Assembly (NCBI RefSeq): GCF_009176705.1
Contig: NZ_AP021846.1
Span: 2,636,001 to 2,700,000, forward strand
Direction: 5' to 3'
DNA length: 64,000 nt
DNA from: Pseudoalteromonas sp. A25
GTDB lineage: Bacteria; Pseudomonadota; Gammaproteobacteria; Enterobacterales; Alteromonadaceae
The position numbers and the translations under genes are program-made. This document shows, one piece after another, positions 37,869 through 46,977 of this stretch. The notes under the pieces are model-generated. The model saw only the letters and a program-made list of their open reading frames with translations, ran no database searches and was not told where the DNA came from. Position 1 is the stretch's first letter; every line of letters begins with the position of its first letter.

Positions 37869-37996
37869 ATATCAGCATGATAACCGACAACATTACTTGC
37901 TTCATCCTATGCGTTAACTCTCTCTAATTCGAGTTAAGAAATTATGGCTTATAGTTAGGCAAGGATCAGTGTGTTTAACTTGACAGTGGGAGTCAT
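37869..37996 (+). mobile_element. Solo right end (128 bp) of the IS1111-group element
   Basis: The 128 bp match the right end of the IS at 41474-41601 with only a few differences, all in the first ~25 bases. It ends in GTGGGAGTCAT directly against an attC core (ACCAACGCC). The transposase and left end are missing. TTGACA and GTTAGGC of the full copy are both preserved. Confidence 0.8.
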
Positions 37997-38097
37997 ACCA
38001 ACGCCCATTTATGGGGCGAGCTTAGGCTTGCTAAAATTAGTGAGGAACGAACCCGAGCAAGCCATGGCGAATCCCTTCATAAACCGCTTGTTATACA
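37995..38097 (-). repeat. attC site a3
   Basis: Minus-strand core GTATAAC (right) and GTTGGTAT (left) bound about 100 bp, with complementary arms containing GGCTTGC and GCAAGCC. Confidence 0.85.
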
Positions 38098-38407: not shown

Positions 38408-38533
38408 GTACCAACGCCCGCTTAAGTGGTGAGCAACGCAATACGATGCTTCCGCATACCACCTAAACCACTAAAATAAACGCATGACAAAAACGCCACG
38501 CGTTGCGAATCCGTCTTAAAGCGCTTGTTAGGC
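38408..38533 (-). repeat. attC site a4
   Basis: About 126 bp, the longest attC here, bounded by GCCTAAC and GTTGGTAC on the minus strand. The long extruded hairpin contains GATTCGCAACGCG and GTGGTGAGCAACG. Confidence 0.8.
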
Positions 38534-39213: not shown

Positions 39214-39315
39214 GTACCAACGCCCTGTTAAGGGGCAAATTGTAGTTGGCTACAATGTGAAGCGGAGCGGAACCAGCCAACTGTTATTTGTCCCGCTTGA
39301 ACAGCTTGTTATAGC
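39214..39315 (-). repeat. attC site a5
   Basis: Minus-strand core GCTATAAC and GTTGGTAC bound about 100 bp. The stretch GTTCCGCTCCGCTTCACAT is shared with a6. Confidence 0.85.
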
Positions 39316-40019: not shown

Positions 40020-40141
40020 GAGCCTTCCTTAAGCTATAGACATAATGACTCCCACACGGTGCTAGCCTCCGCATTTTCGTGGGTTAGCTTAAAGCCAGAG
40101 CCATAATTAGTTTGTCAAATAACTAAATAGCAGAGGCTAGC

Positions 40142-41296
40142 ATGACTAAACATAACATACTTTTCATTGGCTTAGATACTCATAAAGAGTTCATTGAAGT
40201 TGCCTACATCGAAGATAACCGCGGCGCACAACCCATTCATTTCGGTCGCATTTCTTCTGCTAAAGCCGCTATTAAAAAGCTTATCAGGCAATTTGAATCT
40301 AAATACCCAAACGCAACTCTGCATTTCGTTTATGAAGCTGGCCCTTGTGGTTACTGGATTTACCGCTTAATCACTTCTCTTAGGCACTGTTGTTACGTTG
40401 TTGCACCTTCGCTTATTCCTAAAAAACCTGGCGAGCGTGTAAAAACTGACAAGCGTGACGCACTTAAACTGGCTAAATTACTTAAGTCTGAAGACTTAAC
40501 TCCTATTTATGTGCCTGAGCCAGAAGATGAAGCTATTCGTGATTTATCTCGTGCTCGAGAAGTCGCGATGAAAGACTTAAAAGATGCAAAGTACCAGCTA
40601 AAAGCACTGCTGCTTCGCAACAATATTAACTACGCAGGCACTGCAAACTGGTCTCTTAAACACTTACGTTGGCTCACTGAACTGGTGTTGCCACACCCCG
40701 CACAACAAATCGTTTTACAAGAGTTTATTCAAACTATAAACGAGCGAACTGCACGATTAGAGCGACTCGACAATGAACTCTCTCACCATGTTTGTCAATG
40801 GCGATACTATCCTGTTGTTAAAGCCATTCAGGCTATGCGTGGCGTTCGCTTACTCGTGGCCGCTGGCGTTGTGGCTGAGCTTGGCGACTTAACCCGCTTC
40901 GACCATCCGCGTAAATTGATGAGTTACCTTGGCCTTGTACCAAGTGAGCACTCGAGCGGTGGTAAAAGGCACATTGGCGCAATTACTAAATGTGGCAATG
41001 GTCGTGCAAGGCGCTTATTGGTCGAAGGTGCTCATAGTTACCGTCATGCAGCCAACATATCGACCGAGTTACAAAAACGACAAGAAGGTTTACCAAAACA
41101 AATTGTTGATATCGCATGGAAAGCACAATTAAGACTGTGTAAACGTTATAAAAAGCTCATTAATAAAGGCAAGCATTACAACTTGGTTGTCACCGCCATT
41201 GCCCGTGAAATGATTGCTTATATCTGGGCAATCGCTAAACAGATTGTACTCTCACCGATAAATCCTAAATTACGATTATCAAGAGTACCTGCTTAA
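40142..41296 (+). CDS. IS110 family (IS1111 group) DEDD/serine transposase
   Basis: 384 residues. The N-terminal RuvC-like DEDD domain has LFIGLDTHKEF (Asp), VYEAGPCGYW (Glu) and KTDKRDALKLA (two Asp). The C-terminal Transposase_20 domain has VVAELGDLTRFDHPRKLMSY and the catalytic-Ser region GLVPSEHSSGGKRHIG. In this family the enzyme recombines DNA guided by a bridge RNA made from the element's own non-coding end, which for IS1111 is the right one. The frame is intact and AGAGG precedes the ATG, so it could be active. Confidence 0.9.
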   Translation: MTKHNILFIGLDTHKEFIEVAYIEDNRGAQPIHFGRISSAKAAIKKLIRQFESKYPNATLHFVYEAGPCGYWIYRLITSLRHCCYVVAPSLIPKKPGERVKTDKRDALKLAKLLKSEDLTPIYVPEPEDEAIRDLSRAREVAMKDLKDAKYQLKALLLRNNINYAGTANWSLKHLRWLTELVLPHPAQQIVLQEFIQTINERTARLERLDNELSHHVCQWRYYPVVKAIQAMRGVRLLVAAGVVAELGDLTRFDHPRKLMSYLGLVPSEHSSGGKRHIGAITKCGNGRARRLLVEGAHSYRHAANISTELQKRQEGLPKQIVDIAWKAQLRLCKRYKKLINKGKHYNLVVTAIAREMIAYIWAIAKQIVLSPINPKLRLSRVPA

Positions 41297-41480
41297 TATG
41301 AACGAATTTGAGTTAATGCATTGGGTCAAGCATCGGGTGTGGCACAACCACCGACGGCGTTAGGATGGCAATGTTGTTACCGCGGCATTGAACCACGAAC
41401 ATAGACTGAAGATAGGTGCCACGTCGAGTTAAGTAAGGTCTGCTCTGTTACTAGAAATAGTAATAACCAACGAATACCAG
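41297..41480 (+). ncRNA. Candidate bridge RNA region of the IS1111 element
   Basis: The space between the transposase stop and the terminal 128 bp is the expected position of the IS1111 bridge RNA. It contains GGCGTTAGG (41356-41364), identical to the minus-strand core of attC sites such as a9, and sharing GGCGTT with the two cores next to the IS ends. Structure and boundaries were not computed. Confidence 0.45.
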
Positions 41481-41601
41481 CATGAAAACCGACGAAATTA
41501 CTTGCTTCATCCTATGCGTTAACTCTCTCTAATTCGAGTTAAGAAATTATGGCTTATAGTTAGGCAAGGATCAGTGTGTTTAACTTGACAGTGGGAGTCA
41601 T

Positions 41602-41704
41602 ATCAACGCCCCAATAAGGGGCTGATAATGCTTGGCTAAAATGTGAAGCGGAGCGGAACCGAGCCAAGCTTTAGCAGTCCCGCCTTAATTGGCTTGTTAT
41701 GTTT
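41602..41704 (-). repeat. attC site a6
   Basis: Minus-strand core CATAAC and GTTGATAT bound about 100 bp. The left core abuts the IS right end. Confidence 0.85.
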
Positions 41705-44998: not shown

Positions 44999-45889
44999 AT
45001 GAACTCGTCCGAACAACTTCGGTTTAATCACCTTTACCAACAACATCTTACCAATTTAACCCTGCAAGGCAAGCGCCCAGCTACCATCGATGCCTATAGC
45101 CGCGCCGTGCGTCGTATCGCTGCTTTCTTTGATTGCTGCCCTGATAACTTAACCACCCAGGACCTTAAAGCGTACTTTGCACAGCTCATTGCCTCCCATT
45201 CTTGGAGTACCGTGAAGCTCGACCGCAATGGGTTGCAGTTCTTTTATCGGCATGTGCTCAATAAAGAGTGGCAATGGCTTAATATTGTAAAGCCCCCTCA
45301 ATCTAAAACTCTCCCTGATATTCTCACTGCCAATGAAGTGGCTGCTGTTATTAACCACACCCGACAACTGCGCTATCAGGTCTTTTTTTTGACGCTTTAT
45401 AGTATGGGACTTCGGTTAGGTGAAGGTGTCTCTTTGCAAGTCTGTGATATAGACTCAGCACGTATGCATGTGCATATTCGCAATGCTAAAGGCGCTAAAG
45501 ACCGCTTTGTGCCTTTGCCTGAGCGTACGTTATCTGCGTTGCGGTTTTATTGGCAGACTCATCGCCACCCTACTTTGTTGTTCCCCGGCAAAGGCGCTAA
45601 ACCTGACGCTGTGATGGATAAAGGCGGTGTGCAAAAAGCCCTTAAACGCGTGTTGTGTGATTGCAACATTGCCAAGTCCATTAGTCCACATAATTTACGT
45701 CATAGTTTTGCCACTCATTTACTAGAGCAAGGCGTCGATTTACGCTCTGTACAGACTTTACTTGGTCACAACAGTCTCAATACCACCGCCCGCTATACTC
45801 GGCTGACCCATATTACTTGCCTTAATACCTGTGATGTCATCAATCAACTGGCCAATGGGTTAAGTTTGTCTTGGGAGTGTGAGTTATGA
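44999..45889 (+). CDS. Tyrosine recombinase of an IS91-like element
   Basis: 296 residues. A SAM-like N-terminal domain (about 10-95) and a catalytic domain with Arg in YSMGLRLGEG, H-x-x-R in HNLRHSFATHLLEQG and the distal His and nucleophile Tyr in LLGHNSLNTTARYTRL. The sequence lacks the extra helix that distinguishes integron integrases. It overlaps the following transposase start by a few bases (ATGA-type), so both are translated together. Recombinase-plus-HUH pairs occur in several marine IS91 elements. Confidence 0.85.
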   Translation: MNSSEQLRFNHLYQQHLTNLTLQGKRPATIDAYSRAVRRIAAFFDCCPDNLTTQDLKAYFAQLIASHSWSTVKLDRNGLQFFYRHVLNKEWQWLNIVKPPQSKTLPDILTANEVAAVINHTRQLRYQVFFLTLYSMGLRLGEGVSLQVCDIDSARMHVHIRNAKGAKDRFVPLPERTLSALRFYWQTHRHPTLLFPGKGAKPDAVMDKGGVQKALKRVLCDCNIAKSISPHNLRHSFATHLLEQGVDLRSVQTLLGHNSLNTTARYTRLTHITCLNTCDVINQLANGLSLSWECEL

Positions 45890-46977
45890 GGTTCAGTGAT
45901 ATTTTACGCACCCATCTCGATGCGTTTGTTGCCGAGTATTCTGCGCAACTTACCCCACCCATATATCAGGCTATGGCGGCCATTTTACGCTGTCGCACTG
46001 AAACGGCGCAGCGTAGTCACTGGCAATGCCGTGAATGCGTTACTCAGTTGGACTGCCCGCTATCGTGTGGTCCCCGTAGTTGCCCACAGTGTTTGTATAA
46101 CACCACCTCTGATTGGTTGGCTAAACAGCAGAGTAAACTGCTCCCCGTTCATTACTATATGGTGACTTTTACCTTACCGTATGAGTTCAGAGGAATGGCG
46201 CAACACCACCCCGATACGCTTTATCGCGCCATGTTTGTTGTAGCGGCCGATGTGCTTAAGTCATTTGCTTTACGCGCTAAACAACTACAAGGGAAGATTG
46301 GCTTCACAGGTGTGCTTCATACCCACAATCGTCGACGTGACTTGCACCCGCACATTCATTTCATTGTGCCTGCCGGCGCGTTTGATAAAGCTAAAATGCA
46401 GTGGCGTAAAAGTCGTAACCGGTATTTGTTCAACGCTTTTAATCTTGCCGCTGTGTGGCGAGCTCGGCTATTAGATTACCTGACTCAGCGCACAGCTCTC
46501 ACGCTACCATCCAATTTACCTAACAAGTGGGTGGTTGATTGTAAATATGTGGGCAAAGGCTTGCCTGCACTCAAGTATTTATCTCGCTATTTATACAAAG
46601 GGGTATTGCCTGATAAAGACATACTCAGTGACGCCGATGGGAACATATGCTTTGCTTATCTAGATAGCAAAACCAATACCCGTAAAACGCGCACCTTACC
46701 CGCCACTCAGTTTTTATGGCTGATATTACAACATGTGTTACCTAAGGGATTTCGGCGAGTTCGTGATTATGGCTTGCTGCACCCAAGCAACACCGCGCTT
46801 CGACAGCGAATACAAAACTTGCTCGCGTTAATGAGTAATACTGCCCCTGCAATTCAAACCGAGCCGCGAAAGAAAGCCAAATTCACTTGCCCTTGCTGCA
46901 AAAAGCCCATGCAGTTTATGGGCATTCAAGCACGAACGATAAGCTTTAAGTCAGACTCACAAAGCGGGTCATCTTAA
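45886..46977 (+). CDS. IS91 family HUH transposase
   Basis: 363 residues. The N-terminal zinc-binding domain has CRECVTQLDCPLSCGPRSCPQC split over four to six Cys, the HUH motif is LHPHIHFIVP (after HTHNRRRD), and the candidate nucleophile Tyr is in YLSRYLYKGVL. A second Cys-rich knuckle near the end (FTCPCCKKPMQFMG) is usual for the family. It performs rolling-circle transposition. The C-terminus ends shortly after this knuckle, slightly shorter than typical, so minor truncation is possible. Confidence 0.85.
   Translation: MRFSDILRTHLDAFVAEYSAQLTPPIYQAMAAILRCRTETAQRSHWQCRECVTQLDCPLSCGPRSCPQCLYNTTSDWLAKQQSKLLPVHYYMVTFTLPYEFRGMAQHHPDTLYRAMFVVAADVLKSFALRAKQLQGKIGFTGVLHTHNRRRDLHPHIHFIVPAGAFDKAKMQWRKSRNRYLFNAFNLAAVWRARLLDYLTQRTALTLPSNLPNKWVVDCKYVGKGLPALKYLSRYLYKGVLPDKDILSDADGNICFAYLDSKTNTRKTRTLPATQFLWLILQHVLPKGFRRVRDYGLLHPSNTALRQRIQNLLALMSNTAPAIQTEPRKKAKFTCPCCKKPMQFMGIQARTISFKSDSQSGSS

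Follow-up and report, generated by a model that had tools for sequence, protein, structure and literature searches.

A predicted guide RNA in the right non-coding end of an attC-targeting IS1111-family element of Pseudoalteromonas sp. A25

A stretch of 64,000 nucleotides from Pseudoalteromonas sp. A25 (the window) contains an IS1111-family insertion sequence (IS) in an attC site, and with a probability of about 90% we read it as an attC-targeting element that is steered by an RNA from its own right non-coding end. The element has an open transposase gene (tnp), 11-bp subterminal repeats, 7- and 3-bp extensions, an insertion point between T and A, a covarying RNA domain of 84 nt, and a guide that changes together with the target among its relatives. 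According to the mechanism that we propose, the non-coding end would be transcribed and the RNA would be bound by the transposase. In an internal loop of this RNA, GGCGUUA would pair with the target's top strand (T/AACGCC; the slash marks the insertion point), and ACAUA would pair with the bottom strand to the left of and across the cut (ACAT/A), so that both guides would overlap in the TA at the entry point of the IS. The target would then be chosen by a word some seven letters long, with a weak preference added on the left, and attC sites would be chosen because their core carries the seven-letter word.

The element, its ends and its setting

The A25 genome comprises 4.74 Mb, and the window lies within its 3.89-Mb contig. 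Minus-strand genes with attC-like cores (AACGCC in the orientation of the IS) occupy about 38.0 to 44.8 kb of the window, within which no integron integrase scored above the family cut-off; the sole integron integrase gene of the genome above the cut-off was located at C1:1740911-1741849, and two other copies of the IS lie nearby. The element and the interrupted attC comprise the following features.

40038-41604, + strand: complete IS1111-family element, 1567 bp (ends from sites that have or lack a relative of the IS and from the sequence)
40038-40044, + strand: left extension AGACATA, 7 bp (from the sequence and the 7/3-bp rule in the available part of PMC11187229)
40045-40055, + strand: left subterminal inverted repeat ATGACTCCCAC (from the sequence)
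40142-41296, + strand: tnp, IS110/IS1111 (DEDD) transposase of 384 aa (PF01548, PF02371, NF033542)
41297-41604, + strand: right non-coding region, 308 bases between the tnp stop and the IS end
41591-41601, + strand: right subterminal inverted repeat GTGGGAGTCAT (from the sequence)
41602-41604, + strand: right extension ATC, 3 bp (ACC in the other A25 copies)
41605-41699, - strand: attC of the neighboring cassette, interrupted by the IS (core AACGCC at 41605-41610, far core TTGTTA at 41694-41699, last core base T at 40037)

The subterminal repeats form a perfect pair of 11 bp, within the 11 to 13 bp that define the IS1111 family, and the extensions of 7 bp on the left and 3 bp on the right are those given for this family in the accessible text of PMC11187229. 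The tnp frame is open over its full length, and its product matched PF01548 and PF02371 over the cut-off as well as NCBIfam NF033542, which places it in the family by its domains. Among the matches listed, its nearest named relatives came from Pseudoalteromonas. Residues 197 to 268 also gave a weak, sub-cut-off match (E 9e-7) to a TIGR-Tas RNA-guided endonuclease model. As expected for IS1111, more non-coding DNA lies downstream of tnp (308 bases, close to the 305 bp estimated in the original prediction) than upstream (104 bases). An IS621-type RNA would be located in the left end, upstream of tnp; in the window copy, our RNA model matched on the downstream side of this gene. No target duplication was seen in a relative of the IS for which occupied and empty sites could be compared (L133 versus L238). 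Insertion at one end of an attC is the trait of the IS1111-attC group, and the relatives also insert elsewhere.

The IS ends were fixed with the help of IS-free sites. A Klebsiella pneumoniae IncC plasmid (NZ_CP095763.1) carries a relative with a 78.9%-identical transposase (L133 2501-3655) in the attC between arr-3 and qacEdelta1; the corresponding site of a Raoultella plasmid is free of the IS. Among the attC-like AACGCC sites in the fetched DNA, T preceded AACGCC at 86 of 110 sites without an IS versus 0 of 64 sites with one; the 64 occupied sites showed ACC (56) or ATC (8) instead. The letters A[C/T]C that separate the right repeat from AAC had first been taken as part of the target because it is present at nearly every occupied site. 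The IS-free sites ruled this out, and the letters belong to the IS end. Because of these sites, the IS was defined as 40038-41604 with extensions of 7 bp and 3 bp, entering T/AACGCC. It thus sits between T and A of TAACGCC (attC core GGCGTTA), and the interrupted core reads GGCGTT/ATAG. Cores sharing GGCGTT had been predicted at both IS ends; this was borne out at the right end, where AACGCC begins at 41605, and failed at the left end, where the flank ends in CTTAAGCTAT and the nearest AACGCC leftward lies at 39219. An empty version of the left cassette of the window was found neither in 60 genomes (own copy and one short weak match only) nor in plasmids.

The plasmid with the 78.9%-identical relative also carries blaNDM-1. 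The clade of this IS has thus reached clinical integrons, and with a relative in a clinical class 1 integron, the rule of targeting is relevant to the interruption of cassette arrays. The A25 genome itself contains five full-length copies of the transposase (99 to 100% identical) and three fragments, and the covariance model of the RNA domain (see below) detected six copies of that domain. The window also contains, at 37869-37999, a fragment from the right end of the IS that lacks the RNA domain and adjoins an attC core AACGCC at 38000. Two further sites in the window (38409-38418 and 39215-39224) read TACCAACGCC without an IS; as ACC are the letters supplied by the IS end, these sites may be footprints of lost IS copies, or they may be natural core variants. 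At the edge of the cassette cluster, an IS91-family transposase gene (44999-46977) is preceded by an overlapping tyrosine recombinase gene, which scores below the integron integrase cut-off.

The guide word and the fold of the right end

The word GGCGTTAGG was found exactly where it had been predicted (41356-41364) and occurs once in the right non-coding end. In 2000 dinucleotide shuffles this 9-mer arose once (0.0005), and the 7-mer GGCGTTA was present in 2.1% of 5000 shuffles, so that the word match by itself is suggestive and falls short of proof. The 9-mer was originally equated with the minus-strand core of attC. Its first seven letters complement T/AACGCC, while the final GG is unmatched at the window site (GGCGTTATAG): seven of the nine letters can pair and the last two cannot, because the insertion point lies between the T and the A of TAACGCC. 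The right end was further resolved into the following features.

41339-41422, + strand: RNA domain, predicted short seekRNA of 84 nt (consensus fold of 48 relatives, pair counts, and a model match in the own genome)
41339-41345, + strand: 5′ arm of the outer stem, GUGGCAC, pairing with 41416-41422
41356-41362, + strand: right target guide GGCGUUA, complementary to the top strand T/AACGCC
41369-41390, + strand: terminal hairpin (stem 41369-41376 with 41383-41390)
41399-41403, + strand: left target guide ACAUA, same letters as the top strand ACAT/A; weaker than the right guide
41416-41422, + strand: 3′ arm of the outer stem, GUGCCAC
41474-41480, + strand: tentative donor guide AUACCAG, the letters of the joined IS ends ATACC/AG

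The fold was derived from an alignment of 48 of the 52 distinct non-coding ends. Its consensus has a large internal loop between the outer stem and the hairpin, with GGCGUUA on the 5′ strand and ACAUA on the 3′ strand. In the two helices, 96.4% of the cells were paired versus 82.4% in shuffles, double-sided changes were counted in 112 cells versus 31.8 in shuffles, and sliding the helix partners left 24 to 48% paired. The RNA had been expected within 41297-41480; a structured domain indeed lies inside this span and is shorter. The word itself falls in the internal loop, as a target guide should, though not as fully open sequence: RNAalifold placed its GUU in a weak helix of three pairs with AAC or GC on the other loop strand, and the mean unpaired probability of GGCGUU was about 0.5. 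The order of the guides, with the complement of the top strand 5′ of the match to the bottom strand and both overlapping in the target, is that of IS1111-type seekRNAs; the left match is short. The hairpin loop (TTACC, 41378-41382) was considered as a second guide, which was rejected because the hairpin covaries and its loop varies. Rfam returned no match for the element.

The 9-mer could also be a chance word in an unstructured end. The frequency of GGCGTTA in shuffles leaves some room for this explanation, and the RNA showed no stability beyond that of shuffles (z 0.50 and -0.38), its single-sequence folding energies being ordinary. Conservation of the word in 48 relatives, the covarying helices, the letters that covary with the targets and a published precedent argue so strongly against coincidence that we give it hardly any credence. 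The reading as an IS1111 bridge RNA was supported, the word lying in a loop between covarying helices and changing with the target across relatives.

Guides and targets across insertions

Relatives were sampled in two steps. Of 164 relatives, 80 were listed and, together with 5 own copies, gave 85 loci, 8 of which had no readable right end (L005, L007, L018, L027, L028, L031, L052 and L060). Then 295 genomes of the family were searched with a covariance model of the RNA domain, built on 37 sequences, and 46 of them, the own genome included, contained the RNA. Sixty stretches were fetched after this search, and seven of them (L181, L182, L184, L185, L186, L187 and L190) gave no guide by pattern. 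Among these uncounted stretches, L184 would fit and L190, which is decayed and has AAAGCC, does not; L185 differs in a letter of the right end, and L182, L186 and L187 are partial. In L181, about 45 bp (~1680-1740) split the guide between GGGCGTT and TTAGG, and a similar stretch in L182 (~1700-1760) abuts the same point; Rfam had no match to these split stretches and one weak match elsewhere in L182. The remaining stretches, the readable earlier loci and L133 together amounted to 131 insertions, which were reduced to 117 by merging equal flanks; 105 of these had enough right flank. A pattern search with the wrong spacing gave hits in 7 of 394 genomes, which were taken as chance, and one with the right spacing gave hits in 192 of 395 genomes, many of them by chance according to a reversed control; the covariance model performed better than both. 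One relative (L078) has a left repeat of the GACCCCC type and a right repeat of the other type (GGGGAGTC), and its sequence suggests recombination between two IS copies.

All seven letters of the guide matched the target in 87 of the 105 distinct insertions, and in 97 when G.U pairs were allowed. Target positions +1 to +3 read AAC in 105 of 105 insertions. At +4 to +6, 292 of 315 letters complemented the guide of the same element, compared to a mean of 275.7 and a maximum of 287 in 20,000 re-pairings, a permutation that ignores the relatedness of the elements and is inflated by it. Three relatives carry changed guides at correspondingly changed targets (GGAAGUU at AACTTCC in L013, AAAAGUU at AACTTTT in L033, and GGGUGUU at AACACCC in L196), which is consistent with a reprogrammable guide. 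The cores TAACTTCC and TAACTTTT also exist without an IS in the fetched relatives.

These data bear on the possibility that the transposase or the folded single-strand attC performs the recognition and that the non-coding word is conserved for another reason. The AAC at +1 to +3 and the GUUA of the counted guides are invariant, so this part provides no covariation, and eight insertions (L017, L019, L025, L026, L042, L045, L070 and L073) were unmatched by their own guide even with G.U pairs. Recognition without a guide is nevertheless difficult to reconcile with the three relatives in which the letters past AAC change with the guide, or with insertions outside attC. In Vibrionales bacterium SWAT-3, the site was T/AACGC at all 10 loci read (L066-L072, L074-L076), followed by C in seven, T in two and G in one. 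Gene interruption was classified at five of the 10 loci. Frames on both sides of the IS matched LysE in L067 (4-61 and 63-190) and Na_H_antiporter in L069 (1-244 and 247-303). One side matched a Pfam family over the cut-off in L066 and L072, and below it in L068. Judged by these frames, at least two SWAT-3 copies (L067 and L069) interrupt ordinary genes without an attC. As these copies sit in ordinary genes at the same short word, the attC fold is not required, and a short linear word suffices in at least two cases. We therefore regard recognition without a guide as improbable and favor steering by the RNA.

The evidence for the left guide is weaker. The flank letter beside the invariant T was A in 77 of 112 insertions, and the RNA mostly has A at this position. 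Where the RNA has C, the flank had C in 9 of 11 cases, compared to 20 of 101 where the RNA has A (Fisher 7e-5), with one strain supplying five of the nine cases, three of which have a one-letter flank at a contig end. Within the GTTATG clade (mostly Alteromonas-like hosts), the proportions were 7 of 8 and 4 of 15 (p 0.009), five of the seven coming from the same strain. In the copy of the Klebsiella plasmid, five letters are common to the RNA (AAUCUA) and the flank (CATCTA). An extension of the left guide beyond three letters plus UA was rejected, the next position matching in 26 of 105 insertions only. Empty sites as a background for the left guide amounted to 2, found with the first target definition, which included A[C/T]C.

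For the donor side, AUAYCA with G or C as the next letter was found in 123 of 126 copies, duplicates counted, and ATACCAG occurred in 1.5% of shuffles. Among 65 distinct sequences, a U in the RNA was accompanied by T at the right end in 12 cases and by C in 23, and a C in the RNA by T in 2 cases and by C in 28 (Fisher 0.013). The two exceptions, with C in the RNA and T at the right end, include the window copy (end ATATC). This pattern would tentatively fit pairing with G.U allowed, and it also follows lineage. A wider proposal, which we put forward as a conjecture that may well be wrong, is that the guide RNA evolves within one attC-targeting clade toward the core variants AACGCC, AACTTCC, AACTTTT and AACACCC, that a few letters set which cassette arrays or ordinary genes can be invaded, and that the conserved 3′ AUAYCAG is a donor guide in its own right, which recognizes the joined IS ends.

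With these comparisons, a word match has been turned into a tested relation between guide and target in a large clade of attC-hitting IS, which is mostly marine. The three natural guide changes and the insertions outside attC constitute ready experiments on the minimal length of the target.

Comparison with known systems

RNA-guided targeting of attC is already known; new is this member, with broader natural evidence for the relation between guide and target than a single element gives. No description of the guides of this clade was found among the open-licence papers listed. Class C-attC group II introns are retroelements. Like the IS described here, they are mobile elements entering attC (available part of PMC9229058), and Rfam at gathering scores detected no class C-attC group II intron RNA in the window. 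Bridge RNAs of IS110 and IS1111 are described in the accessible text of PMC11208160. According to that text, the IS621 type (IS110 group) shares the DEDD transposase, the RNA from a non-coding end and the internal loop with two target guides; its RNA lies in the left end, whereas the A25 RNA lies in the right end with the guide order reversed, as for IS1111. The closest precedent is that of Siddiquee et al. 2024 (PMC11187229), which, in its available part, reports seekRNA-guided attC targeting for ISKpn4 and ISPst6 and predicts it for ISPa25. The A25 element is likened to these three by their published description, its own RNA being predicted. Its transposase of 384 aa exceeds the 330 to 350 aa given there for the family, and its predicted RNA of 84 nt stands beside seekRNAs of 82 nt (ISKpn4) and 86 nt (ISPst6), with the guides in the order of the published IS1111 seekRNAs.
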